Of a stretch of DNA of 64,000 nucleotides, positions 28,867 to 49,396 are shown piece by piece. The position numbers and the translations under genes are program-made. Source of the DNA: Phanerodontia chrysosporium (Eukaryota > Basidiomycota > Agaricomycetes > Polyporales > Phanerochaetaceae). Every line of letters starts with the position of its first letter. Within the stretch, counting starts at the first letter, position 1. The DNA is taken from assembly GCA_001910725.1 (NCBI GenBank), contig MJGA01000041.1, positions 122,062 through 186,061 of the forward strand. Direction: 5' to 3'. Under the pieces are notes generated by a model that saw only the letters and a list, made by a program, of their open reading frames with translations, was not told the origin of the DNA and did no database searches.

Positions 28867-30620
28867 CTATGCCCTATAGCGCGGGCCATATACGCCTTCC
28901 AACTTTGCCTTGATCTCTAGGACATGGGGTGATGTATTTAGCCATGGAGATTGCTGATAGTTCAAACGTTTGAACGTACGTAAAGCGACAAACTTGGAGA
29001 AGAAGCGCGACCACCAGAAGTGACCTGAGATAGACGTCAGTTTAACAGAGAACTTTGAGCATCAATAGGTAGGTACACATTTACCCATCATAAGCCACAG
29101 TCCTGGGAGGCCATCAAGCTCGCGCCAGATGCCACAAATCTCGCCTTCCTCATTCAATCCCCACACAGGAGGTATCTTTGCACCGGCCTCGTCCCCGAGC
29201 AGCTTCCGTATGGGTACACGCATATCGTCGAATCTGCTAAGGAGATCAGCATTTGAGCAGAGATGAGCTCTTTGCAGGCATCCAGACTCGCCCTGTTGCC
29301 ACAATGATGATGTCTGCGGGAAGCTCTGTCCCGTCCGTAAGAACCACCCTGCGGTCAGTAATGCATTTGACCCCCGCGCCGGATTTAACCTTGATCTGGC
29401 CGTCAATTATCCTCTGGCACGCCCCTACATCTGAATCGTGTAGTCAGTCGGTGAAGCTCAACTGTGCACGTTGCGCATGCACGCACCAACGTAGTATCCG
29501 CCGCAGCGCTCTACGAAGGGCCGGTAAACGCCTCTGTCATTCGGCCCGCCGTTCGCTACGTTGTAGCCTGCACGTTTGAGACCAGTGAGAATATCGCTGG
29601 AGCCAGAAGGTAAGCTCATATATATCGCGGGCTAGCTGCTTCAGGCACAAACCTGTCAAGCTCACGAATGTGGGCGGCGGTGCGTGCGCCAAATGGCCAA
29701 TATAGACCGAGCGGCAAAGAGTGTTTCGTTAACTCAACTTCGTTTAGCTGAACGTTTTCCCATTCGGAAGCTATGAGCACGTATCAGCGGGCCAGTAGGG
29801 CATATAAACGACCACCAAGGCATACCGGGGAGGAGTGTCAGAACACCGTTCATCATCGATAGCACATACGTTGCGCTCCGCTGCACCATAGTGACCTCTG
29901 TAGTGTCTTGTCGGATGTAGTCGATAGGGACAGATGATGTGCCTCACCGACACCATGATCCGCGCAGTCGGACGCGATATCATGCGCTGAGCATCACTTC
30001 AGAATATTTGCATGACGTTGAGGGAAAGCATTGGGCTTACCTGAAGTGCATGCTCCGATGACGACCACTTTCTTTCCCGAAAATGCTTCCGCTGACTTGA
30101 ATTCGGTTGAATGTATGGTTTTCCCGGAGAATTCTTTCTGTTTACTGGTGAGTCTCTTCCAATGCATTGAAAATTCATACGCACTTGACCCTCAAACACG
30201 GTTTTCTTGAAGGTGAAGCCCTGCGCGAGAACAACGCACGAAACATGAAGGATGCGTTCCACGCCGCCACGCCTGACTGTGACGAGCCATTTCTGGTTCA
30301 GCTCGTCGCGTACAGCATGAACAGCCTCCGTCGATGTCCAGACATCTAACTCGAGCGCATCGGCATAGAATTCAAACCAGTTAGCGATCTGATAGTGTTT
30401 CTCATGTCAGTAGCTAGCATGAATAGCTGTTATGGAAAAAACCTACCTTTGCTGCATTGGGGAAGGCCGGCCAGGACGCTGGGAATCTGAACAGCAGAGT
30501 CAATATTCACGCCATAATACCAAGTACAGACATACGGCAGATAGGGCAAATCGTTGCTCCCTGTGCAGCGCAATCAGCATAAAATCGCGACCGGCAGAGC
30601 CCAACCGTACAGATGGGGTC
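28867..30620 (-). pseudogene. flavin monooxygenase C, 3' part of a disrupted gene
   Basis: Minus-strand C-terminal two thirds of a third NTF2/FMO paralog, ending at the stop at 28867-28869. It carries the intact FMO fingerprint FSGKTIHSTEF, the NADPH site VVVIGACTS, VTMVQRSATYVLSMMNGVL, and the terminal EIKAKLEGVYGPRYRA. The exon frames I followed are still open, so decay after disruption is slight. The 5' side stops dead at 30620 where element 1 is inserted, directly after the codons for the conserved HDP motif. It continues beyond the element at 38393. It can no longer make a full protein. Confidence 0.85.
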
Positions 30621-31152
30621 TGTCATGGCGCTGAAATCCCGAGCCAACTCCGGTCATGGAGAACGCCGGAGTTCGAGGGAAGCTACGGAGTAGCACGGAC
30701 ATTCGGAGTTTGCGACTCCGGTCGGTTGCTAAGGTCTTATCTTCACCACATGCCTTCATCATCTCGCAAACCTTTACCCCTTCGTTCCTGAGACAAATCC
30801 CAGATTGGAAGTATGATATGTTTTGTACATCTCCGACCATCTCCACGAACTCCGGACTCAGTAGTATATAAGCTCCCGCGCTAGCACTTGTATCCTCAGT
30901 TCGGATATCGACTTAGGTCCCCCTTGTACCTTCTCGACTCTGCTTAATCCTTTCTCACAATCTCTGTGTGGGCCCGAACCCCGCCACTTCTCCGTATCTC
31001 CGACTCCGAAATCCAGGCAACGCAGACCGCCGAGGGCGCAGCCCTTTAAGGCTGAAGCCGACTGCCATCCGACCTCCGACCTCCGCCCTTCTCCGACCCT
31101 TTCTCCGCTCCGTCCTCCGTTCTCCGGCCCATCTCCGTCTCGCACCTTGACA
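30621..31152 (+). repeat. 5' LTR of element 1
   Basis: 532 bp. TATATA lies at 30865-30870. The predicted transcript start is near 30898, where the 11-nt self-primer sequence begins. Matches the 3' LTR at every position I compared. Confidence 0.95.
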
Positions 31153-32575: not shown

Positions 32576-35500
32576 GCAACTCTCGTGGCTCCGCACGGGC
32601 CGAGAGTTGCGTTGAATCTTCCCGTGCATCCGAGGAGCTCCGTCTCAACGCGTCCGCTCTTTCTCCGTCGCATTCCTTCTACGTTCCGCTAACCGCACCC
32701 CCCGATCTTTCTCTTCTTGCGCTGCTAGACAGTGGCTCCTCACATTGTTTCATTGATTTCGATTTTGCCAAACGGCACCATCTCCGGCTCAAGTCCGTTC
32801 CTCCGCTTCCGCTCCGTCTTTTCGATGGATCTCTTGCAGGGACCATCTCCTTCTCCGTTGATCTTCCGGTCACTTTTCCGACCGGGAACACCCTGGATTT
32901 GTCTTTCTACGTTACTAAACTCGACTCTCCGTCGACTGCAGTCTTAGGTCTCAACTGGCTATCCGCCTTCAATCCGTCGATTGACTGGGCAGCCCGTACC
33001 ATCACCTTTCCGCCTGCAGTCTCTCCCGTACCCCCGTCTCCGGCTGATAAGGCCACATCTCCGGAGAAAACCCCCACTTCCGACGAGTCTTCCGATCCCA
33101 CTCCTCCTGAACTCCGCTCCGCTCCTCTCGTTTCCCTTATCGGAGCAGCCGCATTCGCGCGAGCCTCGCAGTTGTCCGGCTCCGAAGTATTCCACTTCCG
33201 TCTGCGCGCCGTCTCCAACTCCGCTACTCCCGCTCCGACACCCCCGCTCGACCTATCCAATGTTCCCCCAGAGTACCACGACTTCGCCGACGTCTTCAGC
33301 GAGGAACGTGCCTACACTCTACCCCCTCACCGACCTTACGACCTCAAAATCGAGTTGGAAGATGAAAAACCCCTAACTCCGGGGCGTCTCTACTCCCTAT
33401 CTCCGGCTGAACTCCAGGCTCTCCGCGAGTTCATCGATAAGAATCTCTCCGCAGGATTCATCCGCCAGTCCGCCTCTCCGCACGGAGCTCCGATCCTCTT
33501 CGTCAAGAAGAAGGACAGGAGTTTACGCCTCTGTGTGGATTTCCGCGCACTGAATCGCATCACCAAGAAAGACCACTACCCCCTCCCGCTCATCTCCGAT
33601 CTCCTGAATGCTCCGGGGAAAGCCCGTATCTACACCAAGATAGATCTCCGCCATGCGTACCATCTGGTCCGCATCGCGGAGGGCGACGAGTGGAAAACCA
33701 CGTTCCGCACGCGCTACGGCTCTTTCGAGTGGTTGGTTATTCCTGAGGGTCTTACTAATGCTCCTGCTGCTTTCCAGAGATTCATGAACGACGTTTTCCG
33801 CGACCTGCTCGATGAATGTGTTATCGTCTACCTCGACGATATCCTCATCTACTCCGATTCTCCGGAGGAGCACCGGAAACACGTCCGCGAAGTTCTCCGC
33901 AGACTCCGCGAGCATGGCCTCTACGCCAAGGCTCCAAAGTGTCAGTTCCACACTGACTCGGTGGAGTACCTCGGATACATCTTGTCCCCCTCCGGACTTT
34001 CGATGTCCGAGGACAAGGTCAAGATTATTCTTGACTGGCCTACTCCGCGGAAGGTCAAGGACATACAGTCCTTCCTAGGGTTTGCAAATTTCTATCGTCG
34101 CTTCATTCCTTTCTATTCCGATATCGTTGTTCCGCTAACCCGTCTCACCCGGAAGAATACTCCGTGGAAGTGGACTCCGCAGTGTCAGGAGGCGTTCGAT
34201 ACCTTGAAAAAGGCTTTCACGTCCGCTCCGACACTGGCGCAGTGGAAGCCCGGAGCTCCGTTGATTGTGGAGACCGATGCGTCCGACTATGCACTAGCGG
34301 CCATCCTATCCATGGTCACGGACGACGGCGTTCATCCGCTTGCGTTCCACTCCCGGACGTTCTCCGCTCCGGAGTTGAACTACGACGTTCACGACAAGGA
34401 GTTGCTAGCCATCTTCGAGGCATTCCGCATCTGGCGGCACTACCTCGAAGGCTCCTCTACCCCCATAGACGTCATCACCGACCACAAGAACCTGGAGTAT
34501 TTCTCCACGACGAAACTCCTGACCCGGAGACAAGCCCGGTGGTCGGAGTTTCTGAACTCCTTCAACATGGTCATCCGCTTCCGTCCCGGCCGTCTGGGCA
34601 CCAAGCCCGACGCGCTCACTCGACGATGGGACGTCTACCTTAAAGAGGGAGGTAACGGCTACGCCAACGTCAATCCGCACAACTATAAGCCGATCTTCAC
34701 CTCCGAGCATCTCGCTGCATCCCTCCGAGCGACCATCCTCGCAGCTCCGGTTCTCCGGGCTGTGGTCACTATGGACGTGGAAACACTGCACGACGATATT
34801 CGTAAGGCTTTGGCTACGGATTCCCTTGCTTCTTCTATCCTTTCCCAATCTCCGCTTCCTCCGCGCTGGTCCGCTGATAATACAGGTTTACTTCTTCTCG
34901 ACAATCGCATCTACGTCCCCGACATTCCCGAACTCCGGCTCCGAGTTCTCCGTTACAAGCACGACCACCCCCTCGCGGGTCACTACGGCTTTAACAAGAC
35001 TCTCGAGCTCCTCCGACGCGAGTATACGTGGCCCGGTGTCCGTGGGTTTGTCAAGGACTACTGCCAGTCTTGCACGACTTGCAGGAGATCCAAGGCGCCC
35101 CGGCACAAGCCATACGGAACTCTGCAACAACTTCCGATCCCGGAGAAGCCATGGAACTCCATCTCCATGGACTTCATCGAGCACCTTCCGAAGTCCTTCG
35201 GATTCTCCGCTATCCTTGTGGTGGTGGATCGTCTCACAAAGCAGGCAATCTTCATCCCCACCCACGACGAGATTGATGCTCCGGGACTAGCTAAGTTGTT
35301 CATCCTCCATGTTTTCTCCAAGCACGGAGTTCCCTCGCACGTCACCTCCGACCGAGGTTCCGAATTTGTCTCTCAGTTTTTCCGCTCTCTGGCACTGGCT
35401 CTGGACATCGAGCTCCACTACACCTCCGGGTATCATCCCGAGGCAGATGGGCAGACAGAGCGTACTAACCAGACTCTCGAGCAGTATCTCCGGATGTACT

Positions 35501-36255
35501 GCAATTACCAGCAGGACAACTGGTCGGAGTTACTTCCGCTCGCGGAGTTTGCGTACAACAATGCCCCAAGCGCAACAACGGGCATTTCTCCGTTCTTCGC
35601 TAACAAGGGTTATCACCCGAATCTCACAGTGCACCCCGAGCGTGACATCGCGTCCGCCCGCGCTCGCGACTTCGCTGTCGATCTCCACGAGCTCCAGTCG
35701 GAGCTCCGGACACAGATCGCGGAAGCGCAGAAGCGCTACCAAGGACCTGCCGATGCCCGGAGATCACCTCCGCCTGACCTCCAGGTCGGAGACATGGTCT
35801 TCGTCAAGGCTAAGCACCTCCGGACTACCCGTCCATCTCCGAAGCTTGCGGAGAAAATGCTTGGCCCTTACAAGGTCATAGCAAAGGTTGGCCCGCAGTC
35901 CTATACACTGCAGCTACCCCGCGAATTCCGCACCGTACACCCCGTGTACCACATATCCATGTTAGAACCTCACCTTTCTAGTTCTATTCCAGGTCGGACT
36001 ACATCTCCGCCACCTCCGGTCGAAATCGACGGAGACCTCGAATACGAGATCTCCGAGATCGTAGACTCCAAGATCGACAAACGTCGGAGATGCCCCCTCC
36101 TCTACAAGGTCCGCTGGTTAGGATATGAAAACACCGACGAAGAGTTCGAATGGATTCCGGCAAGCGAGCTAGAGCATGCTCAGGAACACATTGCGGACTT
36201 CCATCTCCGGTACCCCGAAAAACCCGGTCCACTCTCGGACTCCGTACCCCGATGA
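32515..36255 (+). CDS. pol: Pol of element 1 (PR-RT-RH-IN-chromodomain)
   Basis: Open in the -1 frame relative to gag from 32515, so it is probably made by -1 frameshifting in the 61-nt overlap; no classical slippery heptamer is obvious. Domains in order: aspartic protease ALLDSGSSHCFI; RT with VIVYLDDILIYS; RNase H with LIVETDASDYALAAIL; integrase zinc finger with HPLAGHYGF and CQSCTTCRRSK; DDE core with SMDFIEHL, TSDRGSEFV and EADGQTERTNQTLEQY. The C-terminal chromodomain has YEISEIVDSKIDKRR, YKVRWLGYENTDEEFEWIP and an ending before the stop at 36255. The chromodomain would guide integration to particular chromatin. All motifs look intact. Confidence 0.93.
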   Translation, partial: GPLGYDHELRYSAELGVKSLSNSRGSARAESCVESSRASEELRLNASALSPSHSFYVPLTAPPDLSLLALLDSGSSHCFIDFDFAKRHHLRLKSVPPLPLRLFDGSLAGTISFSVDLPVTFPTGNTLDLSFYVTKLDSPSTAVLGLNWLSAFNPSIDWAARTITFPPAVSPVPPSPADKATSPEKTPTSDESSDPTPPELRSAPLVSLIGAAAFARASQLSGSEVFHFRLRAVSNSATPAPTPPLDLSNVPPEYHDFADVFSEERAYTLPPHRPYDLKIELEDEKPLTPGRLYSLSPAELQALREFIDKNLSAGFIRQSASPHGAPILFVKKKDRSLRLCVDFRALNRITKKDHYPLPLISDLLNAPGKARIYTKIDLRHAYHLVRIAEGDEWKTTFRTRYGSFEWLVIPEGLTNAPAAFQRFMNDVFRDLLDECVIVYLDDILIYSDSPEEHRKHVREVLRRLREHGLYAKAPKCQFHTDSVEYLGYILSPSGLSMSEDKVKIILDWPTPRKVKDIQSFLGFANFYRRFIPFYSDIVVPLTRLTRKNTPWKWTPQCQEAFDTLKKAFTSAPTLAQWKPGAPLIVETDASDYALAAILSMVTDDGVHPLAFHSRTFSAPELNYDVHDKELLAIFEAFRIWRHYLEGSSTPIDVITDHKNLEYFSTTKLLTRRQARWSEFLNSFNMVIRFRPGRLGTKPDALTRRWDVYLKEGGNGYANVNPHNYKPIFTSEHLAASLRATILAAPVLRAVVTMDVETLHDDIRKALATDSLASSILSQSPLPPRWSADNTGLLLLDNRIYVPDIPELRLRVLRYKHDHPLAGHYGFNKTLELLRREYTWPGVRGFVKDYCQSCTTCRRSKAPRHKPYGTLQQLPIPEKPWNSISMDFIEHLPKSFGFSAILVVVDRLTKQAIFIPTHDEIDAPGLAKLFILHVFSKHGVPSHVTSDRGSEFVSQFFRSLALALDIELHYTSGYHPEADGQTERTNQTLEQYLRMYCNYQQDNWSELLPLAEFAYNNAPSATTGISPFFANKGYHPNLTVHPERDIASARARDFAVDLHELQSELRTQIAEAQKRYQGPADARRSPPPDLQVGDMVFVKAKHLRTTRPSPKLAEKMLGPYKVIAKVGPQSYTLQLPREFRTVHPVYHISMLEPHLSSSIPGRTTSPPPPVEIDGDLEYEISEIVDSKIDKRRRCPLLYKVRWLGYENTDEEFEWIPASELEHAQEHIADFHLRYPEKPGPLSDSVPR

Positions 36256-36506: not shown

Positions 36507-37654
36507 CTACTCCTTCCTCGCCTTCTTCCGCGCCGGACTTTTCTCCGCCTCCTCCTCCTCCGATGACTCCGAGCTCTCCTCCGAGCTCTCCTCCTCACCC
36601 TCCGTCTCCTGCGCCTCCGCCAAAGGGCCCCCTTCTTCTTCTTCTTCTTCGTCTCCTTCTCCGTCTTCTTCTCCGCTCTGCTCCGCCTCCGCCCGCTCCA
36701 ACTCCGCCTTCATCGACCCCACGCGGACGGCCCACTTCTTGACCTCACGGGGCCACCGCGCCTGATCCGCCTTGATCAGGTCCAGCTCCCTCCGCACCGC
36801 CTCCACCTGCTCCGCCGGCACCTCCACCTCCGGCCCCGGCGCCGGACCCAGACCCTGCATCCGGACGAGGGCGTCGTCGAAGTCCGGGTCGGCGAGACCG
36901 GCGTACAGCGTGTCCGCCAACACCCCCATGGTGTAGGCGAACTTGGCGAACTCGCGCCGGGTCTCGTCGCCCTGGCGCTTGACCTCCGCCGTGAGGTCGT
37001 CCACCGCCTCCGTCAGGAGGCCCAGGGCCTCCGCGATCGCCCCCGCGGCCGTCGCCACCTCCGACTCCGCTCCGGCCTCGGAGTCCGCGACCTCCTCCGT
37101 CGTCACCGGGGCCTTGCCCTTCCCCTTCTCCGCGGCCTTCTTCCGCGGCGCGGCTCCGCTCACGGAGACGCCACCCTTCGTGCACGGCCGCTTGGCGACC
37201 GCACACGGCTGGCAGGCCTTCGCCCGCCCCCCAACCCGCCACTCGCACTCCAGGCCCAACTTGCGACAAGAGTCGCAAGGGGCCTGCTTGGCGGCCTCCG
37301 CCTCCGCGTGCCTCCGGGCTCCTGCCTCCGCGGACCCCTCCGCCACCTCCGGCCGCTTTCTCTTCGCGGCCGACGCGGACCCGCTCGCCTCCTTCTCCTC
37401 CCGCTGCTTCCGCAGCTCCGCCGCCCGTTTCCGCTTCTCCGCCTCCGCCGCCTTCCGCCTCTCCTCCTCCGCCTTCCGCTTCGCCTCCTCGCGCCGCTGC
37501 TCGATCTCGCGCCGTCTGCGCGCCGCCTCCTCGAGGGCTTTCTTGGCCTCCTCCTTGGCCTTCCGGATTTCTGCAAACTCCGTTAGTCTCGAACTCCGGA
37601 AGACGAAACTCCGGGGTACTTACCCTGCTCGAGTCGTTCGTCTTCGGAAGACAT
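36507..37654 (-). CDS. antisense Zn(II)2Cys6 / coiled-coil protein carried by element 1
   Basis: Two-exon gene on the strand opposite to gag-pol, inside the element. Exon 1 is 37624-37654 (ATG at 37654, good context accaccATGt). A 53-nt intron (37571-37623) has a GTAAGT donor and a TTTGCAG acceptor. Exon 2 is 36507-37570. Splicing gives 364 residues. Residues 11 to about 75 are a Lys/Glu/Arg-rich coiled coil. A basic motif KRKRP lies near 80. Then C110, C113, C120, C131, C134 and C141 form the exact Zn(II)2Cys6 spacing (C-x2-C-x6-C-x10-C-x2-C-x6-C). A helical middle follows, and an acidic tail ends in basic ARKKARKE. Likely nuclear, binding DNA or RNA; possible transcription or silencing-control factor (inference). 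An intron antisense to the genomic RNA survives retrotransposition, which fits a real antisense gene. Confidence 0.82.
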
Positions 37655-37847
37655 GGTGGTTCTGAGGAACCCCAGCCAGAATCCGCGAGCCTAAAATACC
37701 CGAAATCCGTACCCCGGGCACCCCTTCCGCAACCCCGGATACCCGATCAATTTTCATCCGCTGGGGAGCGCCGCATTCCGTTGGGGCACGAAAAATACGA
37801 AAGTCGTACGATGTCGCGAATTCGCTTGGCCTCGAAGGTCTCGGCCT

Positions 37848-37857
37848 AAGAGGGAGG
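37848..37857 (+). other. polypurine tract of element 1
   Basis: aagagggagg immediately before the 3' LTR (three bases away), the expected plus-strand primer. Confidence 0.7.
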
Positions 37858-37860: not shown

Positions 37861-38392
37861 TGTCATGGCGCTGAAATCCCGAGCCAACTCCGGTCATGGA
37901 GAACGCCGGAGTTCGAGGGAAGCTACGGAGTAGCACGGACATTCGGAGTTTGCGACTCCGGTCGGTTGCTAAGGTCTTATCTTCACCACATGCCTTCATC
38001 ATCTCGCAAACCTTTACCCCTTCGTTCCTGAGACAAATCCCAGATTGGAAGTATGATATGTTTTGTACATCTCCGACCATCTCCACGAACTCCGGACTCA
38101 GTAGTATATAAGCTCCCGCGCTAGCACTTGTATCCTCAGTTCGGATATCGACTTAGGTCCCCCTTGTACCTTCTCGACTCTGCTTAATCCTTTCTCACAA
38201 TCTCTGTGTGGGCCCGAACCCCGCCACTTCTCCGTATCTCCGACTCCGAAATCCAGGCAACGCAGACCGCCGAGGGCGCAGCCCTTTAAGGCTGAAGCCG
38301 ACTGCCATCCGACCTCCGACCTCCGCCCTTCTCCGACCCTTTCTCCGCTCCGTCCTCCGTTCTCCGGCCCATCTCCGTCTCGCACCTTGACA
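37861..38392 (+). repeat. 3' LTR of element 1
   Basis: 532 bp, matching the 5' copy throughout as read. Followed by the GGGTC target duplication. Confidence 0.95.
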
Positions 38393-38534
38393 GGGTCGTG
38401 GATTGAGAGTCTGTCGTAGCGGCTTCTCCAATTATCTCCTACCCGCGCGTTCTTCTCAACAACAAGGCACCGGACTCCCAAGTGCTTGAGGTGCGCCGCA
38501 ACCCCAAGTCCGCCCTGACCAGCACCAACGACGA
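38393..38534 (-). pseudogene. flavin monooxygenase C, FAD-site fragment between elements 1 and 2
   Basis: 142 bases of the disrupted monooxygenase. The minus strand reads [19 protein letters not shown], then [20 protein letters not shown] and SIHDP, almost the same as copy A. Element 1 starts right after the HDP codons. Element 2 starts inside the glycine-rich FAD motif region. The third Gly/Ser of the motif is Gly here, Ser in A and B. Confidence 0.9.
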
Positions 38535-39134
38535 TGTCACAGTTTTTCGTCTTAACCCTTAGGGTTAGGGGCAGCAGGTGACAGAAGCGATTACTCCGAA
38601 CTGTGACATGCAGAAGCGCTGGAGTGACAGCCCTAGGCTCGGGGCTGGTCACGTGATACGGCGGTCACGTGATGCGCACACGTGCGGTATCCCAGGGTCA
38701 CATGGTCGAAGGTCTAGAAGCAGGCAAGGGTCTGGAAGCGCCGAGACACTCCGGAATGGACTAGAAAGTCCTGGAGGTCTCTGGACAGGTCCGGACAGTG
38801 CTGGAACGTTCTGGAGGTTTCTGGGACATCGTAGGAACATTTAGGAACGTGTAGGAGAATGTAGGAATGCCTGTAGGGCACTAGCCAATAGCGTAGTAGG
38901 TATTAGATAGCTAGGACCCTGAACACCGGTCCCTGGGGACCTGGTACACATGTATATAAGCCCTGAGGGCTGGGGGTGCCTCCCCAGCTTCAATCTCATC
39001 GCATCTCACCTCTCTAGCCTCTATACCTCGTCTTCAAGCCTGGCTACACCCTTTGTAGTCCAAGTAAACCTTTGCCAGTGAGTATTGCTGGTTGGTTTGG
39101 TGTATAGGCGCTAGGGCAGCGCATTTTTGTGATA
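38535..39134 (+). repeat. 5' LTR of element 2
   Basis: 600 bp. TATATA at 38953-38958 and predicted transcript start at 38986. U3 carries a telomere-like palindrome (38554-38566), three CACGTG boxes (38650-38684) and a GAAcgTTC heat-shock-type motif (38802-38815). Confidence 0.95.
38650..38684 (+). promoter_or_regulatory. three CACGTG boxes in the U3 of element 2
   Basis: CACGTG occurs at 38650-38655, 38666-38671 and 38679-38684, twice in the context gtCACGTGat. Such E-boxes bind bHLH factors (Cbf1/Pho4/SREBP types) in fungi. The same cluster is in all four LTR copies of this family. Confidence 0.5.
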
Positions 39135-39136
39135 GA

Positions 39137-39147
39137 AGATTGAAGCT
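39137..39147 (+). other. self-priming primer-binding site of element 2
   Basis: agattgaagct, two bases after the LTR, is the exact reverse complement of agcttcaatct at 38986-38996, which begins 33 bases after the TATA start. The geometry is identical to element 1 although the LTRs are unrelated. Confidence 0.75.
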
Positions 39148-39443
39148 AGCCAACCTACTCCACCTTTGGTGGCCTAGGTTATTGCTTTGGGTTCTGGGGG
39201 CTTGTTTGAACAAGTGCTTTCGCGCTTTGTTCAGTTTTCTGCCGATCCACAGGCGTAAGTGGGCACTATAGTACCTTTTTAGGTACAGACAGGGGAACGT
39301 GGTGTAACCCACCTCAGAGGGCTTTGCCTGCGGACGAGTAACCCCTGTTGTAGTGCTGGACTAAGGGTGTAATACCCTGTCCAACCAGTTTTAGCTGTGT
39401 GGCGTGGAAACCCACAGTAATACCCCTTTCTCTTCGTTGAGGG

Positions 39444-40248
39444 TTGGCTGGCAGGAAAGCCTTGCGCTTTGCCTGTGTGGAGAAGTTTTCTGGCTTGTGT
39501 ACACAGGCTGACCTGTGTTTACTAGTGCCTAAAGCTGCTAGGAACCGTTTTGTCCTTGCTAAGGACGAGAGCTCTGGCAAACCCTTACTTGAGCGCATCA
39601 AGATCTCGAACCTCCACCGCTTCAAAGACGTTGGGAAGCCGCGCCCTGCCTCGCACTACACCCTACACCCCTGTCCCTGGTCGTCGTGAAAGGCTTGCTC
39701 GTGAAGCAGACTTGAACGACTTCAAGCACCAGCTTCAGCTCGAAGACTATCGCAACGAACAGCGCAAGCGCCGCCTACTCGATCGCATCGCGAACCCCCC
39801 TCCCCCTCTACCCCTCATCGAACGTATTGAACCTCCCCCTACTCCCCCTATCGAAGTCAAACCCATTCCCAAGGACCTTCGCTTTCACACCAACACTCAG
39901 GTCCATCAGCTGCGCGACTACGGACGAAAGTTCAACGGCGCCCTTAACCACTTGGGTCCGTTCTTTCAGAAGCTAGACGAGCAGCGTTTTCGAGTTGGGT
40001 TGACTGAACACGAGCTCTACACCTTGGGCTTGTTCAAGGAGAGGTTCGACAACATTCGCAAACACCTTCAGACCATCGTCGAGACGAAGGAGTACACCAC
40101 GAGGGAGTGGAAGAAGATTTCGAGGGATTTGAAGAAGGCAGGCGCACATAGCTTCGCTGAGCTTAAGCCACGCTTCGCTGAGCATTGCAGGGAGCTGATT
40201 CAGGAGTTGGGTGAAGATTGGTTGTTTTTGGAGAAGAACCTCGATTAG
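39444..40248 (+). CDS. ORF1 of element 2, frame broken by an 8-base gap
   Basis: Leader ORF between the LTR and gag. It is homologous to the 271-codon ORF1 of element 3, but 8 bases (gtacaaac) are missing near 39651, so the upstream frame stops at 39689. The downstream part reads through in another frame to 40248. The product is charged and helical (READLNDFKHQLQLED, then Pro-rich, then FDNIRKHLQTIVETKEYTTR). No ATG exists in any frame from the predicted transcript start to the gag ATG at 40278. Function unknown; Gag-like or capsid-accessory is only a guess. Confidence 0.6.
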
Positions 40249-40277
40249 TTTTTGTATCTGCGCGTTTTTGAATCAAG

Positions 40278-41858
40278 ATGTCGCTCAATTCAAATCCTGT
40301 TGACTTTGGTTTGCGTTCTGCTTCGAGTTCAAGTGGCATGGACCCTTGGGGAGCGTTAGAACTTGGCTCTATGGCTGAGGGAGGCCCTACCCCAGTTTTG
40401 GCCGCTGCGCCGCTTTCGACCTCTTACGAAGAGTACAGCCAGTCATGGGTACAAGCCGCTCAGGAAGGACTGACTCCTGGGGACTTTAAGGCCCTCGTTG
40501 ACAGCCTGGGTAACTGGGTAAAGGCTGAAATAGCTCAAGTAAGGTCGGAAATGGGTTCAGAAGTCCTTCGCTTGAAGGAAGCCCTTCGCAAACGCAAAAC
40601 CGAGGCCAAGACACTTCAGGAGCAGATAGACATTCTTGAGCAGACTAGACAGCACTTGTCTGCGCAGATAGCAGAGGCTCAGAACCAAAATCGCGTTTTG
40701 CAGAACGCTATGCAGGTGCTGAAGCAGGAGAACGAGAGCTTGAAAGTGTTGGTTCAGCAAGGCACTAGTGGAGGCAACATTGGGTTGTCTCAGTCTTTGT
40801 TCCCTACCATGAAGGAGCCTGACACCTTTAATGGTGATAAGGCTAGCAAGCTGGATGACTGGCTCGAGTCGATGGCACTCTGGTTGCGCCACCGTGGCGT
40901 AATGGACGACGAAAAGAAGATAGAGACAGCGATGACTTACCTGCGAGGTTCAGCAAAGAAGGTCATGCAAGAGTACTTTGACAAGGTGGCAGACTCAAAG
41001 CCCCTTGGTACTTGGACCAACTTTGTGAACGAACTCCAGAAAGGATTCCAACAGACCGACAAGAAGGACAGGGCAAGGGCAGAGTTTGAGCAGCTTGTCA
41101 GCAAGAAAGGGACGAACGAGAAGACTTTCAACGAGTTTGCCGCTCGCTTCCGTTCGCTGGCTCGCCAAACTGGCTTCTCCAACGAGGAACTGTTGGTCAA
41201 AGCCTATGCCCATACCCCTCGTGCCGCCGCCGATGTACTGGCAGCCCGTGGTCGTGCTCAGTGGGCTACGACCTGGGATGGTTGGTTGAAGGATGTTCAG
41301 GAGATTCTGCAGGATCAACGTCTCTTGACGGGCACCGTACTCTCTGGACAGCCTCAGTCGTCGAAAGACCCTGACGCTATGGATGTCGACGCCTTGAAGA
41401 AGGGCTCAGCCCAGGGCAAAGGCAAGACAGCCAAAGTTCAGAAGGTTGCCATGTCGTTCGAGGAGGCGAAGAAGAAAGGCTGCTGCGCTCAGTGTGGAGG
41501 CAAAGGCCATATCGCCAAGGAGTGTCCATCGAAGAAGAACAACTCAGGTTCTTCGACGTCGTCGAGTAAAACCACCAATGCACCGGTGGCCAGTTCATCA
41601 AAGGCTTCGTCTTCAAAGGGAAAGGAGAAGGATAAGGGCTCTCGCCACACGAAGAACAGCGTGCGCGAGGTGTACGCCAGCGACTCGGAGAGATTCCAGG
41701 AGGTAGCCTCTGACGAGGAATCGAGCTCAGATAGCTCAGAAGAAGAAGATACCCCCAAGACCAAGCAAAAGAAGAAGTCGTCTTCAAAGGAGAAGGCGCA
41801 GAAGATTAACCGCGTGGTATTCTCAGATGATGAGGATTTTCTGCAGGGACCGATGTAG
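40278..41858 (+). CDS. gag: Gag of element 2
   Basis: 526-residue Gag from the first AUG of the predicted transcript, 29 bases after the ORF1 stop. It has a coiled coil at about 90-160 (LKEALRKRKTEAKTLQEQI), a retrotransposon Gag core (DKASKLDDWLESMALWLRH to FNEFAARFRSLARQT), a CCHC knuckle CAQCGGKGHIAKEC, and an acidic Ser-rich tail ending LQGPM. The frame is intact. Confidence 0.92.
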   Translation: MSLNSNPVDFGLRSASSSSGMDPWGALELGSMAEGGPTPVLAAAPLSTSYEEYSQSWVQAAQEGLTPGDFKALVDSLGNWVKAEIAQVRSEMGSEVLRLKEALRKRKTEAKTLQEQIDILEQTRQHLSAQIAEAQNQNRVLQNAMQVLKQENESLKVLVQQGTSGGNIGLSQSLFPTMKEPDTFNGDKASKLDDWLESMALWLRHRGVMDDEKKIETAMTYLRGSAKKVMQEYFDKVADSKPLGTWTNFVNELQKGFQQTDKKDRARAEFEQLVSKKGTNEKTFNEFAARFRSLARQTGFSNEELLVKAYAHTPRAAADVLAARGRAQWATTWDGWLKDVQEILQDQRLLTGTVLSGQPQSSKDPDAMDVDALKKGSAQGKGKTAKVQKVAMSFEEAKKKGCCAQCGGKGHIAKECPSKKNNSGSSTSSSKTTNAPVASSSKASSSKGKEKDKGSRHTKNSVREVYASDSERFQEVASDEESSSDSSEEEDTPKTKQKKKSSSKEKAQKINRVVFSDDEDFLQGPM

Positions 41859-41875
41859 AGTCTGCGACATCTGGT

Positions 41876-42292
41876 CCGTTTTTAGATTTCCTTTACCCTC
41901 CCGACTCAGTAGAATGTATTAAATCAGTTTTGGAATCGAGAAAAGTCTCTAGTTTGCCCTCTAAATCGAGCTTTATCGTTCCAGTAACTTTGAGTCAGGG
42001 TAAGGAAATCAGAGTGCAGACTACCGCGCTGGTTGATTCGGGGGCCTATGCTGTGTTCATTAGCCATCGCTTCGTCAGGAAGCATAAGCTGAAGATGAAC
42101 CAGCTGGCCAGGGAGATACGCGTTTACAACGCAGATGGCTCCAGGAACAAGTGTGGCAGTATTGAGGAGTATGCTTGGCTCGACGTAGCCGTAGGGGACC
42201 ATGTCTCCAGACAAGCATGCCTCATTACAGATCTGGGTGGAAAGGACGTTTCCTCGGCCTTAGCTGCTCGAAGAGGTCTAGTCAAAGAATAG
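41876..42292 (+). pseudogene. aspartic protease region of element 2, C-terminally broken
   Basis: In the -1 frame relative to gag: a retropepsin-like stretch with TTALVDSGAYAVFISHRF (catalytic Asp-Ser-Gly). The frame then ends at the stop at 42290. A second frame over the last 60 bases reads LGLSCSKRSSQRIDWDEHG, the usual end of a Ty3 protease, so a frameshift near 42242-42255 separates it. The same stop is present in element 3, so the defect predates both copies. Confidence 0.7.
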
Positions 42293-43040
42293 ACTGGGAT
42301 GAGCATGGGCAGCATAAGCAGAACCCGAAGAACTGATGAACTAGGACTTCGAGGAGGAAAGAGCAGAGCTTAGGCTCTAACTGTCGCTTACACCACCCCA
42401 GATTGGCCACAGTTTTCGGCAGTTGAACTGCCAGAAGGGAGGAATCAAAGATTCCAGTGTTGTGCCCCTCAGTTTCGGCTATCTGACAGAACTTTGGAAC
42501 CTCTCAACTGTTGAGAACCAAAGTAGGGCGAGTATTACTACTCAGAAGGCCCAGTGTTGTGCCATTTATTGAACGAGTTAGTCAGATAGTGCAGGTCCCT
42601 AGGCACTGAGGTACTGGTACCTTTGGGGAGGGCTCCACAACTTAGCTTCGAAGTACTGAAGCAGAAGTTTTCGGTTGCTTGCCGAGCAAGTGACAGGGCA
42701 GTGTCTCTCAGCCTGAAGATGTTTGCAACACCTAGTTGAAGTTAGCATTCAGGGCATAATCCCAGATACTTCAGGGTGTTGAGAGCAACTGCAGCAGTTG
42801 GGTCAAAAGGGCTTTTTACCTATATTGGCTATGCATAGACTCTTGGAGTCGGCCTACACACGTTGGAATTGGACGCACTAGCCTGAGAAGGGGCGGATCC
42901 TATGTCCAGGAGGCCATATCCTGAATTGGGGGTAGATTGCCATAATCGTGGAAACCACATTGAGAAGCCAGAATCTTCCACGATACGAGCCCAAGGCAAT
43001 CTGGCCATTCAGTGATAAGGGACACTAGCAAGAGGCTAGC
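42293..43040 (+). other. region without RT/RNase H in element 2
   Basis: About 750 bases where a Ty3/gypsy element should hold about 2 kb of reverse transcriptase and RNase H. I find no YxDD motif or RNase H motif in any frame. Element 3 has nearly the same sequence here, so the family propagates in this form. The function, if any, could be RNA packaging or structure (inference). Confidence 0.75.
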
Positions 43041-44983
43041 AAGAGGATCAATACAAGCCCAGTTGGATGACAGAGTCATCAAGTGTTATGGACCACGAGA
43101 AAGGACCAAGAGAGTTCGGGAAGGACTTAGCGGAATGGCACCTCGAGGATGGGCTACTACTGCACTGAGGCAAGGTGTATGTGCCCAAGGACGACAAGAT
43201 TAGGGCGGATCTACTCAAGTTACACCACGACTTCCCTGGGGCTGGACACCCTGGACGATGGAAGACGTTGGAGTTGCTGTCGCGCAACTACTGGTGGCCA
43301 GGAATGTCGGTTTACGTCAAGAAGTACGTCGCAGGCTGCGAAGTCTGCCAGTCGCATAAAAACGTCAACCAGAAGCCTGCTGGCCTGCTACAACCGAACG
43401 AGGTTCCGTCGGAACCCTGGGAGATAATCTCATGCGATATGATCACGGACTTGCCTGAGTCGGACGGTTACAACGCTATCTTCGTAGTCGTTTGCCGCTT
43501 AACCAAGCGAGCACATTTCCTCCCCATCACCAAGGAGTTTTCAGCCAAGGATCTGGGAAATTTGCTCTATGAGCGTGTTTGGCCTTTGCACGGCCTACCC
43601 AGACAGATCATTTCGGATAGAGGAACGCAGTTCGCCGCGAAACTCTTCCAGGAATGGTGCAGACTCCTGGGGATCAAGTCAGCAATGACTACAGCGTTTC
43701 ACCCTCAGGCAGACGGTCAGACTGAGCGAGTTAATCAGTCATTGGAGCAGTATCTGCGCTGCTACACAAGCTTCAGGCAGGACGACTGGGCGTACCTTTT
43801 GCCCTCTGCCGAGTTTGCGTACAACAACCAGGCGCATGAAAGCACCAAGAACTCGCCATTCTTCGTCGAATATGGCCGTCATCCACGCATGTTCCCAGAG
43901 CAGGACCGTGTTACAAGGTTGTCAGAACTGGACGACTGGACGAAGCTTAGACAGGAGGCCCAAGATCAGGCGAAAGCCGCGCTCGTGCTGGCTGCAGAGC
44001 GAATGAAGTGGTACTACGACCAGGGTAAATCAGAACCCTTGTTCAAGGTCGGAGACCGTGTTTGGCTTGACGCAAAGGATCTGAACCTTCGGGTTCCCTC
44101 CAAGAAACTGGCACCAAAGCGAGTAGGCCCTTACGAGATCGTAGAGCAGCTGGGACCGGTCACCTTCAAGCTGAAGTTACCAGTCCATGTGAAGATTCAC
44201 CCGGTCTTCCACGCAAGCAAGCTCACGAAGCACGTCGAGGATGAGGTTGCCAATCGCACGCGCAAACCCCTACCACCCATTCGCATGGGTGATGACGAGG
44301 AGTACGAGGTCGAGCAGATCGTAGATGCACAGCCAGACTCTAAAGGCCGTGTTATGTACCGAGTACGGTGGAGAGGCTACGATGAGCATAGCGACACATG
44401 GGAATACTTGCCCAATCTCAAGCACGCTATGGCGAAGGTCAAACAATTCCACAGGAAATACCCAGATGCGCCGAAGGCAATTTCCCTTCTGCAACGCCAC
44501 CACGACGAGGAGGATGAGTTTTTCGTGCGCGAACTCGCGCTACTCCAATCTTGGGGAGCAGACGACCAGTTCGAGGTCGAGCTCATGAACAAGGATGCAA
44601 AACTTCCCTCACGTGGCTCGCCAGAAAGCGCAGGGTTGGATCTTTTCATCACGGAAGACCTTACGCTCAAGCCCCATGATCGCAAGCTAGCGTCAACGGG
44701 CCTTCGAATGTGTACTCCACCAGGTACCTACGCTCGAGTCGCACCACGGAGTGGCCTCAGCCTCAGAGGCATCGACATAGGAGCAGGCGTTATTGACCGA
44801 GATTATCGAGGAGAGCTCAAAATTCTACTCATCAACAACTCGCCCGACACCTTTACATTCCACAAGGGTGATCGTGTCGCTCAACTCGTGCTCGAAAGAA
44901 TCTCCTACGCCGAACCAACTCCGGTTTCTCGCCTCGACTCAACCATTCGCAGCAGCGATGGTTTTGGCTCCACTGGTATTTAG
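43041..44983 (+). CDS. integrase-chromodomain-dUTPase ORF of element 2
   Basis: Remnant pol frame. Up to 43168 it reads PREFGKDLAEWHLEDGLLLH, then an in-frame TGA, then open from 43169 to 44983. Domains: integrase zinc finger (HHDFPGAGHPGRW, CEVCQSHKNVNQ); DDE core with CDMITDLPES, ISDRGTQFA and ADGQTERVNQSLEQY; chromodomain (EYEVEQIVDAQPDSKGR, YRVRWRGYDEHSDTWEYLP). A complete dUTPase follows with five motifs: AGLDLFI, PRSGLSLRG, GVIDRDYRGEL, KGDRVAQLVLER and SSDGFGSTG. dUTPase hydrolyses dUTP to dUMP and would limit uracil in element cDNA. There is no good ATG at the start, so expression may need readthrough of the TGA or another mechanism. Confidence 0.9.
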
Positions 44984-45018
44984 GCTTCACCAGGAGGTTC
45001 AGCTAGAATTGGGGGTAA

Positions 45019-45618
45019 TGTCACAGTTTTTCGTCTTAACCCTTAGGGTTAGGGGCAGCAGGTGACAGAAGCGATTACTCCGAACTGTGACATGCAGAAG
45101 CGCTGGAGTGACAGCCCTAGGCTCGGGGCTGGTCACGTGATACGGCGGTCACGTGATGCGCACACGTGCGGTATCCCAGGGTCACATGGTCGAAGGTCTA
45201 GAAGCAGGCAAGGGTCTGGAAGCGCCGAGACACTCCGGAATGGACTAGAAAGTCCTGGAGGTCTCTGGACAGGTCCGGACAGTGCTGGAACGTTCTGGAG
45301 GTTTCTGGGACATCGTAGGAACATTTAGGAACGTGTAGGAGAATGTAGGAATGCCTGTAGGGCACTAGCCAATAGCGTAGTAGGTATTAGATAGCTAGGA
45401 CCCTGAACACCGGTCCCTGGGGACCTGGTACACATGTATATAAGCCCTGAGGGCTGGGGGTGCCTCCCCAGCTTCAATCTCATCGCATCTCACCTCTCTA
45501 GCCTCTATACCTCGTCTTCAAGCCTGGCTACACCCTTTGTAGTCCAAGTAAACCTTTGCCAGTGAGTATTGCTGGTTGGTTTGGTGTATAGGCGCTAGGG
45601 CAGCGCATTTTTGTGATA
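45019..45618 (+). repeat. 3' LTR of element 2
   Basis: 600 bp, same sequence as the 5' LTR as far as read, preceded by the short G-rich tract ttgggggtaa. Followed by the GACGA duplication. Confidence 0.95.
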
Positions 45619-45633
45619 GACGAGCACGTCGGG
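45619..45633 (-). pseudogene. 15-base remnant of monooxygenase C between elements 2 and 3
   Basis: The minus strand reads CCC GAC GTG CTC GTC (PDVLV), the residues just before the FAD glycine motif in copy A. Removing element 2 and one GACGA copy rejoins it exactly to the 38393-38534 fragment. Confidence 0.85.
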
Positions 45634-46233
45634 TGTCACAGTTTTTCGTCTTAACCCTTAGGGTTAGGGGCAGCAGGTGACAGAAGCGATTACTCCGAAC
45701 TGTGACATGCAGAAGCGCTGGAGTGACAGCCCTAGGCTCGGGGCTGGTCACGTGATACGGCGGTCACGTGATGCGCACACGTGCGGTATCCCAGGGTCAC
45801 ATGGTCGAAGGTCTAGAAGCAGGCAAGGGTCTGGAAGCGCCGAGACACTCCGGAATGGACTAGAAAGCCCTGGAGGTCTCTGGACAGGTCCGGACAGTGC
45901 TGGAACGTTCTGGAGGTTTCTGGGACATCGTAGGAACATTTAGGAACGTGTAGGAGAATGTAGGAATGCCTGTAGGGCACTAGCCAATAGCGTAGTAGGT
46001 ATTAGATAGCTAGGACCCTGAACACCGGTCCCTGGGGACCTGGTGCACATGTATATAAACCCTGAGGGCTGGGGGTGCCTCCCCAGCTTCAATCTCATCG
46101 CATCTCACCTCTCTAGTCTCTATACCTCGTCTTCAAGCTTGGCTACACCCTTTGTAGTCCAAGTAAACCTTTGCCAGTGAGTATTGCTGGTTGGTTTGGT
46201 GTATAGGCGCTAGGGCAGCGCATTTTTGTGATA
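45634..46233 (+). repeat. 5' LTR of element 3
   Basis: 600 bp. Primer sequence agcttcaatct at 46085-46095 with matching binding site at 46236-46246. Confidence 0.95.
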
Positions 46234-46539
46234 GAAGATTGAAGCTAGCCAACCTACTCCACCTTTGGTGGCCTAGGTTATTGCTTTGGGTTCTGGGGGC
46301 TTGTTTGAACAAGTGCTTTTGCGCTTTGTTCAGTTTTCTGCCGATCCACAGGCGTAAGTGGGCACTATAGTACCTTTTTAGGTACAGACAGGGGAACGTG
46401 GTGTAACCCACCTCAGAGGGCTTTGCCTGCGGACGAGTAACCCCTGTTGTAGTGCTGGACTAAGGGTGTAATACCCTGTCCAACCAGTTTTAGCTGTGTG
46501 GCGTGGAAACCCACAGTAATACCCCTTTCTCTTCGTTGA

Positions 46540-47355
46540 GGGTTGGCTGGCAGGAAAGCCTTGCGCTTTGCCTGTGTGGAGAAGTTTTCTGGCTTGTGTA
46601 CACAGGCTGACCCGTGTTTACTAGTGCCTAAAGCTGCTAGGAACCGTTTTGTCCTTGCTAAGGACGAGAGCTCTGGCAAACCCTTGCTTGAGCGCATCAA
46701 GATCTCGAACCTTCACCGCTTCAAAGACGTTGGGAAGCCGCGCCCTGCGTACAAACCTCGCACTACACCCTACACCCCTGTCCCTGGTCGTCGTGAAAGG
46801 CTTGCTCGTGAAGCAGACTTGAACGACTTCAAGCACCAGCTTCAGCTCGAAGACTATCGCAACGAACAGCGCAAGCGCCGCCTACTCGATCGCATCGCGA
46901 ACGCCCCTCCCCCTCTACCCCTCATCGAACGTATTGAACCTCCCCCTACTCCCCCTATCGAAGTCAAACCCATTCCCAAAGACCTTCGCTTTCACACCAA
47001 CACTCAGGTCCATCAGCTGCGCGACTACGGACGAAAGTTCAACGGCGCCCTTAACCACTTGGGTCCGTTCTTTCAGAAGCTAGACGAGCAGCGTTTTCGA
47101 GTTGGGTTGACTGAACACGAGCTCTACACCTTGGGCTTGTTCAAGGAGAGGTTCGACAACATTCGCAAACACCTTCAGACCATCGTCGAGACGAAGGAGT
47201 ACACCACGAGGGAGTGGAAGAAGATTTCGAGGGATTTGAAGAAGGCAGGCGCACATAGCTTCGCTGAGCTTAAGCCACGCTTCGCTGAGCATTGCAGGGA
47301 GCTGATTCAGGAGTTGGGTGAAGATTGGTTGTTTTTGGAGAAGAACCTCGATTAG
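46540..47355 (+). CDS. ORF1 of element 3: 271-codon frame without any methionine codon
   Basis: Open from just after a TGA near 46534 to the TAG at 47353-47355, 29 bases before the gag ATG. The product is charged and mostly helical, with Pro-rich stretches (ANAPPPLPLIERIEPPPTPP) between two helical parts. No ATG occurs in this frame or either other frame from the predicted transcript start (46085) to 47384, 1300 nt. Translation, if any, must start at a near-cognate codon such as TTG 46543. No known family recognised; possibilities are an accessory particle protein or a frame kept open by another constraint. Confidence 0.6.
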   Translation, partial: GLAGRKALRFACVEKFSGLCTQADPCLLVPKAARNRFVLAKDESSGKPLLERIKISNLHRFKDVGKPRPAYKPRTTPYTPVPGRRERLAREADLNDFKHQLQLEDYRNEQRKRRLLDRIANAPPPLPLIERIEPPPTPPIEVKPIPKDLRFHTNTQVHQLRDYGRKFNGALNHLGPFFQKLDEQRFRVGLTEHELYTLGLFKERFDNIRKHLQTIVETKEYTTREWKKISRDLKKAGAHSFAELKPRFAEHCRELIQELGEDWLFLEKNLD

Positions 47356-47384
47356 TTTTTGTATCTGCGCGTTTTTGAATCAAG

Positions 47385-48812
47385 ATGTCGCTCAATTCAA
47401 ATCCTGTTGACTTTGGTTTGCGTTCTGCTGCGAGTTCAAGTGGTATGGACCCTTGGGGAGCGTTAGAACTCGGCTCTATGGCTGAGGGAGGCCCTACCCC
47501 AGTTTTGGCCGCTGCGCCGCTTTCGACCTCTTACGAAGAGTACAGCCAGTCATGGGTACAAGCCGCTCAGGAAGGACTGACTCCTGGTGACTTTAAGGCC
47601 CTCGTTGACAGCCTGGGTAACTGGGTAAAGGCTGAAATAGCTCAAGTAAGGTCGGAAATGGGTTCAGAAGTCCTTCGCTTGAAGGAAGCCCTTCGCAAAC
47701 GCAAAACCGAGGCCAAGACACTTCAGGAGCAGATAGACATTCTTGAGCAGACTAGACAGCACTTGTCTGCGCAGATAGCAGAGGCTCAGAACCAAAATCG
47801 CGTTTTGCAGAACGCTATGCAGGTGCTGAAGCAGGAGAACGAGAGCTTGAAAGTGTTGGTTCAGCAAGGCACTAGTGGAGGCAACGTTGGGTTGTCTCAG
47901 TCTTTGTTCCCTACCATGAAGGAGCCTGACACCTTTAACGGTGATAAGGCTAGCAAGCTGGATGACTGGCTCGAGTCGATGGCACTCTGGTTGCGCCACC
48001 GTGGCGTAATGGACGACGAAAAGAAGATAGAGACGGCGATGACTTACCTGCGAGGTTCAGCAAAGAAGGTCATGCAAGAGTACTTCGACAAGGTGGCAGA
48101 CTCAAAGCCCCTTGGTACTTGGACCAACTTTGTGAACGAACTCCGGAAAGGATTCCAACAGACCGACAAGAAGGACAGGGCAAGGGCAGAGTTTGAGCAG
48201 CTTGTCAGCAAGAAAGGAACGAACGAGAAGACTTTCAATGAGTTTGCTGCTCGTTTCCGTTCGCTGGCTCGCCAAACTGGCTTCTCCAATGAAGAACTGT
48301 TGGTCAAAGCCTATGCCCATACCCCTCGTGCCGCCGCCGATGTACTGGCAGCCCGTGGTCGTGCTCAGTGGGCTACGACCTGGGATGGTTGGTTGAAGGA
48401 TGTTCAGGAGATTCTGCAGGATCAACGTCTCTTGACAGGCACCGTACTCTCTGGACAGCCTCAGTCGTCGAAAGACCCTGACGCTATGGATGTCGACGCC
48501 TTGAAGAAGGGCTCAGCCCAGGGCAAAGGCAAGACAGCCAAAGTTCAGAAGGTTGCCATGTCGTTCGAGGAGGCGAAGAAGAAAGGCTGCTGCGCTCAGT
48601 GTGGAGGCAAAGGCCACATCGCCAAGGAGTGTCCATCGAAGAAGAACAACTCAGGTTCTTCGACATCGTCGAGTAAAACCACCAATGCACCGTGGCCAGT
48701 TCGTCAAAGGCTTCGTCTTCAAAGGGAAAGGAGAAGGATAAGGGCTCTCGCCACACGAAGAACAGCGTGCGCGAGGTGTACGCCAGCGACTCGGAGAGAT
48801 TCCAGGAGGTAG
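47385..48812 (+). pseudogene. gag: Gag of element 3, frameshifted in the tail
   Basis: Same as element 2 Gag through the CCHC knuckle. A single missing G near 48692 then shifts the frame. The normal tail (SSKASSSKGKEKDKG to LQGPM) continues in another frame at 48692-48964. The knuckle and core are intact, so a truncated Gag could still be made. Confidence 0.85.
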
Positions 48813-49093
48813 CCTCTGACGAGGAATCGAGCTCAGATAGCTCAGAAGAAGAAGATACCCCCAAGACCAAGCAAAAGAAGAAGTCGTCTTCGAAGGAGAA
48901 GGCGCAGAAGATTAACCGCGTGGTATTCTCAGACGATGAGGATTTTCTGCAGGGACCGATGTAGAGTCTGCGACATCTGGTCCGTTTTTAGATTTCCTTT
49001 ACCCTCCGACTCAGCAGAATGTATTAGATCAGTTTTGGAATCGAGAAAGTCTCCAGTTTACCCTCTAAATCGAGCTTTATCGTTCCAGTAACT

Positions 49094-49396
49094 TTGAGTC
49101 AGGGTAAGGAAATCAGAGTGCAGACTACCGCGCTGGTTGATTCGGGGGCCTATGCTGTGTTCATTAGCCATCGCTTCGTCAAGAAGCATAAGCTGAAGAC
49201 GAACCAGCTGGCCAGGGAGATACGCGTTTACAACGCAGATGGCTCCAGGAACAAGTGTGGCAGTATTGAGGAGTATGCTTGGCTCGACGTAGCCGTAGGG
49301 GACCATGTCTCCAGACAAGCATGCCTCATTACAGATCTGGGTGGAAAGGACGTTTTCTCGGCCTTAGCTGCTCGAAGAGGTCTAGTCAAAGAATAG
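49094..49396 (+). pseudogene. protease remnant of element 3
   Basis: Carries the DSGAYAVFISHRF active-site region and the same premature stop as element 2, followed by about 740 bases lacking RT and RNase H. Confidence 0.7.

Follow-up and report, generated by a model that had tools for sequence, protein, structure and literature searches.

Introduction

The locus described here raises the question of whether a retrotransposon can carry, antisense to gag and pol, a gene that is itself spliced and, if so, where this gene came from and what its product does. The window (the whole stretch of DNA analyzed, 64,000 nucleotides) was drawn from the 39.0-Mb genome of Phanerodontia chrysosporium, which is represented by 145 contigs. 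The original prediction, made from this stretch without database searches, had placed a spliced antisense gene for a Zn(II)2Cys6 coiled-coil protein in an LTR element, referred to below as element 1.

Antisense genes between pol and the 3' LTR (aORF-3R) have been described in plant Ty3/gypsy elements, including maize Grande (gene23), rice RIRE2 and Silene Retand. Gene23 has a promoter of its own, and its product is nuclear; the TRP28 domain of Retand is predicted to bind DNA (available text of PMC7264820 and PMC11963269). According to the same portions of these papers, such genes have been catalogued for years, their function is unknown, and the origin of most of them is called unknown. The HTLV-type antisense genes HBZ and APH-2 to -4 give a spliced 3'-end antisense transcript and a nuclear product, which in the case of HBZ is a bZIP protein (available text of PMC10186651). 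Retroviruses had been mentioned in the original prediction by way of analogy; plant Ty3/gypsy antisense genes are the closer precedent. In a literature search that mostly covered papers outside subscription journals, no antisense accessory gene was found described in fungal LTR elements. A figure legend in the available text of PMC2864245 notes, for the chromovirus elements drawn there, an additional ORF of unknown function. Antisense pol-3' LTR genes are therefore already known from plants, and what differs in the present case is the intron, the predicted fold and the traceable paralogs.

Structure of element 1 and its antisense gene

Element 1 was identified as a chromovirus by the presence of gag followed by RT, RNase H, integrase and chromodomain, all flanked by LTRs (Table 1). 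Because the LTRs were identical at 534 of 534 aligned positions and GGGTC was found at both outer ends of the TG..CA repeats, the insertion must be recent. Its neighbors in the window are elements 2 and 3 (38535-52680), two near-identical LTR elements in tandem, the four LTR copies of which are located at spacings of 6484, 615 and 6485 bases.

The gene structure that had been predicted was obtained again when it was re-derived: on the minus strand, from 37654 to 36507, two exons with an intron of 53 nt between them give a 364-residue product, and the gene is flanked by pol and the 3' LTR. When this gene was used as the query in a six-frame search of the same genome, 35 matches were obtained, 11 of which were close (85-100% identical) and 24 weaker (26-65%). 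When the last 318 residues of pol were used, 125 of 478 candidates were scored as matches; 11 of these had 97-100% identity, the 12th, a truncated piece, had 92%, and all others listed had 41% or less. At each of the 11 loci with a close antisense gene, a close pol copy was found on the opposite strand, so that both sets of matches represent the same loci. An LTR was located directly upstream of the gene in every case, and the bases outside the LTR differed in each; therefore, the copies represent 11 separate insertions. No antisense-gene match was found beside the truncated pol piece (C2:758488) in the six-frame search, nor near any of the distant chromovirus families of this genome (identity of 40% or less). 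Thus, all 11 close copies have a coding frame that runs against gag-pol in the interval from pol to the 3' LTR, i.e., at the site and in the direction reported for plant aORF-3R genes, which are likewise present in most copies of their families according to the available text of the plant papers.

Table 1. Positions of the features of element 1, of its antisense gene and of an unrelated ORF pair in the paralog cluster (positions in the window unless a locus is named)
Feature	Position	Strand	Basis
Left target-site duplication, GGGTC	30616..30620	.	5 bases repeated at 38393-38397
5' LTR, TG...CA	30621..31152	+	Identical to 37861-38392
gag, 464 aa	31181..32575	+	Retrotrans_gag 2e-12, Ty3_capsid 2e-7, weak zinc knuckle (Pfam)
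pol, 1118 aa: RT, RNase H, integrase, chromodomain (Chromo)	32899..36255	+	Pfam
Antisense gene, exon 2 including stop	36507..37570	-	Kept in 11/11 copies, 1 with internal stop
Acidic stretch, residues 311-352	36546..36671	-	24 D/E, 0 K/R
Six-cysteine region, residues 109-140	37182..37277	-	Spacing; AF2 piece and Foldseek
Long helix, probable coiled coil, residues 12-72	37386..37568	-	AF2 helix; in-frame length changes among copies
Intron, 53 nt, GTAAGT...CTAAC...TTTGCAG	37571..37623	-	Signals kept in 11/11 copies
Antisense gene, exon 1, 31 nt, phase 1, ATG at 37654	37624..37654	-	Length class and phase recur in 8 gene types
TATA-like TATTTTA, 44 nt before ATG	37692..37698	-	Sequence
Family promoter box GGTGCCCGGGGT	37711..37722	-	Genome-wide box search
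Probable polypurine tract AAGAGGGAGG	37848..37857	+	Read from sequence beside LTR start; inferred
3' LTR	37861..38392	+	LTR directly upstream of antisense gene in 11/11 copies
Right target-site duplication, GGGTC	38393..38397	.	Sequence
Unrelated ORF pair, copies	L033:465-1520, 2299-3522, 3550-4797; L032:9137-9901	-	ORFs

Evidence that the antisense gene is maintained

The ATG, an exon 1 of 31 or 34 nt, the donor GTRAGT, the CTAAC motif and the GCAG acceptor were retained in all 11 copies. The frame was open in 10 of them, and the remaining copy (L011) contained one internal TAG. The intron body was the most variable region, with 21 of 52 ungapped columns varying across the 11 copies versus 150 of 1022 in exon 2. 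All 10 indels in the exons were multiples of three, compared with 4 of 36 in the noncoding set, which comprised the LTR, 5'UTR, intron and 3'UTR with one 2-nt edge gap excluded (Fisher p=2.5e-7, with neighboring events not fully independent). Variable sites were distributed over the three codon positions as 38/42/73 (p=0.00075). The pN/pS ratio, calculated by a counting method on related sequences rather than on a tree, was 0.38 over all 55 pairs in the gene frame, ranging from 0.15 to 0.40 in the single pairs listed, and 0.49 to 1.45 in the other five frames.

A GC-rich frame that is open by chance and flanked by look-alike splice signals was considered. The sense strand over the gene also contains long open stretches (339, 239 and 220 codons), and the pN/pS of opposite frame 1 was 0.49. 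In view of these stretches, openness alone does not prove a gene. However, the restriction of exon indels to multiples of three, the conservation of the signals within a diverging intron and the existence elsewhere of homologous genes with the same structure and promoter (see below) leave this explanation a negligible likelihood, and it was rejected on the basis of gene structure, pN/pS and indel pattern. The combination of neutrality (a ratio near 1) with stops in most copies, which the original prediction had named as evidence against itself, was not observed. At the level of sequence, the central claim of the original prediction, a maintained spliced gene on the antisense strand, was supported: the structure was intact in 11 of 11 copies and the frame in 10 of 11, indels and codon positions followed a coding pattern, and paralogs had the same layout.

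An effect of the transcript rather than of the protein was also weighed. Antisense RNA could pair with genomic RNA and limit the copy number via dsRNA silencing, the frame being secondary; the mRNA would span approximately 1.1 kb of the genomic RNA, and the copy number is low (11). Nevertheless, the in-frame indels and the pN/pS of 0.38 indicate selection on the protein, which a role of the RNA does not need, so this explanation seems highly improbable.

Predicted features of the protein

The cysteines at residues 109-140 are arranged as C-X2-C-X6-C-X10-C-X2-C-X6-C, and this spacing was kept in all 11 copies. The spacing rule of the fungal Zn(II)2Cys6 family (PF00172) is C-X2-C-X6-C-X5-12-C-X2-C-X6-8-C, and intervals of X2, X6, X10, X2 and X6 agree with it. 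Thus, the exact Zn(II)2Cys6 spacing of the original prediction was upheld, but membership in Pfam Zn_clus was not: a 50-residue piece scored 15.5 bits, below the cut-off of 21. The corresponding scores in paralogs were 13.9 bits for type C and 10.4 bits for type E, with none for type D. The full protein matched no Pfam family at E<=1, including middle-homology and bZIP domains, and a sequence-profile search of the PDB returned five unrelated weak matches and no zinc-cluster protein.

The structure of a 56-residue piece containing the cysteines was modeled with AF2 from the single sequence; in the model obtained (pLDDT 71), each of the two CxxC motifs is followed by a short helix. When this piece was compared with the PDB by Foldseek, 18 of 19 rows were GAL4-type zinc clusters, with E-values all above 0.2 (best 0.22); these rows comprised Pho7, PPR1, PUT3, Leu3, AlcR, GAL4, HAP1 and the entry 1cld. 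In cysteine spacing, and tentatively in the fold predicted for this piece, the protein resembles fungal Zn(II)2Cys6 factors such as GAL4, PPR1, PUT3, Leu3 and Pho7. It differs from them in its score below the Zn_clus cut-off, in a probable coiled coil that precedes rather than follows the cluster and in the position of the KR-type basic residues, which are found in the second half of the cysteine region (types A, C and D), whereas those of GAL4 are in the first half of the cluster.

Other predicted features were found as well. Residues 1-98 contain 32 K/R and 25 D/E and include KRKR, a basic motif resembling a nuclear localization signal. AF2 without an alignment gave a single long helix over exon-2 residues 2-61 (block-mean pLDDT of 83-95 for residues 11 to 60), which fits the proposed coiled coil; the full model was otherwise poor (mean 61.6, pTM 0.29). 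The acidic tail is present (Table 1), and besides it the protein has a basic tail, KKARK. The best reading is that the antisense gene encodes a nuclear coiled-coil protein with a GAL4-like zinc cluster, and this protein is probably a regulator.

Paralogs outside the element

The weaker matches were sorted into types B, J, C, D and E, the gene of element 1 being type A; three further types, F, G and H, came from neighboring positions on contig C85. The six cysteines are present in A, B, C, D and E and lacking in J, F, G and H. Therefore, zinc binding appears to be dispensable for some members of the family. Eight types (A, B, C, D, E, F, G and J) fit one layout, namely, an exon 1 of 31-37 nt, phase 1, and then an intron of 48-63 nt. 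These paralog models were hand-picked for canonical donors and phase, and that of B was inferred from its upstream sequence; the longest-frame candidate often differed from the model picked, even for A (365 versus 364 residues). Under the picked model, the C85 copy of E leaves the frame ahead of its cysteines (216 aa). A, J and F have in common a helical region at the C terminus and a KKAR/KRAR tail. In paralog E (L032:7886-8254), tandem repeats of approximately 30 bases (PTRLAPPPPQ-like) differ between copies.

Type B was recognized as a degraded relative of the element, consisting of an LTR fragment, the end of pol (87%, residues 1032-1118), a broken antisense gene and an LTR. At the J locus, the start of an LTR is located upstream of the gene and a second LTR 0.7 kb past the gene end, oriented as in A; none of the queries used gave a gag or pol match at this locus. 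The locus looks like a small LTR-J-LTR element with an open antisense frame (321 aa, no cysteine cluster). In this apparent element (L012:330-2768), J was the only long frame found; its upstream LTR is split by another LTR element with many copies in the genome. Absence of the gene from related elements, which would have spoken against the prediction, was likewise not observed, as in this genome it is present in the 11 close copies, in degraded B and in small J.

Types C, F, G, E, H and D form one cluster on the same strand (C85:45000-64113), in which no gag or pol relics were detected at E<=0.01 with the queries used. The cluster also contains an unrelated pair of long ORFs in two diverged copies, whose identity to each other is 23% and 33% (Table 1). 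The three ORFs of this pair on L033 had no Pfam match at E<=10, and the first ORF of the pair has 3 near-identical copies in the genome. A relic LTR (L032:4282-4770), approximately 77% like that of element 1, is located 190 nt past F in the cluster copies that reach it.

Parts of the cluster recur at 97-100% identity (93% on C66) on C63, C106, C41, C47, C51, C24, C66, C114 and the end of C85, and a 266-base piece of it begins C113. On C24, C66 and C113 and in the second C85 copy, the match reaches the contig end and has the same orientation to it. A telomere-repeat pattern gave 0 matches in a type of search that skips simple repeats. From the contig ends and the common orientation, we infer that the paralogs form a chromosome-end gene cluster.

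A promoter box common to the family

A composite promoter, GGTGCCNGGGGT-N12/13-TATTT (GGTGCC-N-GGGGT, 12-13 bases, TATTT), was found to be common to the family upstream of the start codon. The box has one extra G in J and one mismatch in G, and H has a weaker version of it. The automatic TATA pattern missed F and G, for which TATTTAG was taken from the alignment. The composite had 33 exact sites in 39 Mb (A 10, B 1, C 8, D 2, E 5 and F 7), and its reversed control had 0. Each site was located beside a family coding match, and no exact site was found outside the family in the whole genome. When one mismatch was allowed at a fixed spacing of 13, there were 29 sites, 22 of them exact and 7 with one mismatch, compared with 1 for the reversed control; the 7 comprised 5 of type G, 1 of type J and 1 outside the assigned family genes, at G000:C85:7694-7723 (-). 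Since the box is both family-wide and family-only, a common regulator is likely. We guess that this part is played by the cysteine-bearing protein of the family itself.

In the 11 copies of the element, the stretch between the gene and the LTR varied at 15 of 204 ungapped columns, i.e., less than the LTR (67/529, p=0.049) and the 3' side (44/215, p=0.00012). The conserved promoter-like box with TATA may be the counterpart of the promoter that a plant aORF-3R gene such as gene23 has of its own.

The family box was absent from the LTR of element 1 at up to 2 mismatches. Therefore, control of the sense promoter of the element, and with it the suggestion in the original prediction that the protein could control its own element, is unsupported. 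With up to 2 mismatches allowed, the window contained 8 box matches versus 6.0 expected, and inside the element the only match was the gene's own site. The LTRs of elements 2 and 3 contain GGTCCCTGGGG before TATATAA (38928, 45412, 46027 and 52512 in the window, + strand). As a candidate family box, this sequence was rejected; it differs by two mismatches and is probably a chance look-alike.

The distribution of the box also bears on the possibility that the protein is a structural helper, helping the pre-integration complex to enter the nucleus or choosing targets by DNA binding, rather than a transcription regulator. Basic motifs and a coiled coil would suit such a helper, and this role has been proposed for plant antisense genes (available text of PMC7264820). 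However, paralogs without gag or pol have the same promoter box and architecture, which argues that the function is not tied to the particle, and we regard a purely structural role as quite improbable.

Origin and role of the antisense gene

The reading that we favor, with a probability of roughly 0.58, is that the gene was captured whole, with its promoter and intron, and has been kept as an antisense accessory gene encoding a probable regulator of the shared box. Since paralogs outside the element have the same start signal and intron, the gene was probably picked up whole. A cellular-type gene would have been taken up by a chromovirus as genomic DNA, in antisense orientation, in the interval from pol to the 3' LTR. 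The intron would survive retrotransposition because its splice signals face backwards in the RNA of the element and so escape removal from the genomic RNA; promoter, exons and intron would thus reach every new copy. The antisense mRNA would be driven not by the LTR but by the gene's own promoter, consisting of the box, TATA and a short leader, and would then be spliced and translated.

The product would be nuclear, with an N-terminal coiled coil for dimerization and a GAL4-like six-cysteine zinc cluster for DNA; its C-terminal part would be helical, and it would also have an acidic stretch and a basic tail. It would most likely regulate transcription via the box of its own promoter and of the paralogs, and the copies of the element would thereby join the regulatory circuit of the paralogs. 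Of this account, the analysis showed the gene structure, the constraint on the coding sequence, the inheritance of the gene together with the element and the promoter and intron that it shares with paralogs; we infer the direction of capture, the expression, the nuclear location, the binding of zinc and DNA, and the target.

In the opposite history, which was judged to be unlikely, the gene arose in an LTR element, and domestication or decay of copies of it gave rise to the clustered paralogs. LTR-borne forms exist at three levels (full A, degraded B and LTR-J-LTR), the relic LTR resembling that of A adjoins F in the cluster copies, and the family tree leaves the root unfixed: it is unrooted, without E and B, and groups A with J at a support of 81/87. 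On the other hand, diversity is greater among types C to H of the cluster than between A and J, which are LTR-borne, and the cluster types are located among unrelated ORFs with no gag/pol relic at the threshold given above.

A further, more tentative scheme may be considered, although it is doubtful. The element would carry a DNA-binding regulator along with the promoter box used by the paralogs; with each insertion, a source and a target would be added to a self-addressing network linking the element to the chromosome-end cluster, with F, G, H and J acting as dimer partners or brakes.

These observations show by what route the intron of an antisense gene can persist while the element is repeatedly reverse transcribed. 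Because a spliceable intron has been kept and outside paralogs have the same promoter and intron, origin and function can be tested directly, the former as capture of a whole gene rather than of a processed mRNA and the latter as binding of the protein to the shared box.

Comparison with known systems

The gene differs from plant aORF-3R genes in residing in a fungal chromovirus, in being spliced with conserved intron signals, in encoding a GAL4-like six-cysteine region and in having paralogs, not located in intact LTR elements, that share its promoter and intron. A term search of the main text of PMC7264820 and PMC11963269 in the form available did not find "intron" in either. No homology to plant aORF proteins such as TRP28 (PF04195) was detected, as no Pfam family matched at E<=1. 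By analogy, the plant and fungal genes may be kin in function, not in descent.

Transcripts of HBZ and the APH genes begin in the LTR (available text of PMC10186651), whereas the fungal promoter-like box is located between the LTR and the gene. The likeness to these genes is one of position and, as predicted, of a spliced antisense transcript and a nuclear product; no bZIP and no common Pfam domain was found. LTR elements of bdelloid rotifers have also acquired accessory ORFs, with ORF3 types (DEDDy, GDSL and others) shared between retroelements; a term search of the available text of PMC5408684 found no antisense accessory gene.

Relatives in other genomes

No relatives were obtained when proteins were searched with residues 95-300 or with an alignment of six family sequences; these searches were word-based and may miss distant ones. 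Scans of viral contigs and of bacterial and archaeal genome contigs also yielded no relatives of the antisense gene, and pol was not found in viral contigs. As a control, pol residues 150-650 matched 7885 proteins at E<=0.001. Most of the 120 pol matches listed were 69-91% identical, and they included proteins of Agaricus, Lentinula, Leucocoprinus, Coprinellus and Trametes. The pol lineage is thus widespread in the contents of the database, and the antisense frame may have been left uncalled there by gene callers. Where repeats are masked in the annotation of fungal genomes, genes of this kind would escape notice.
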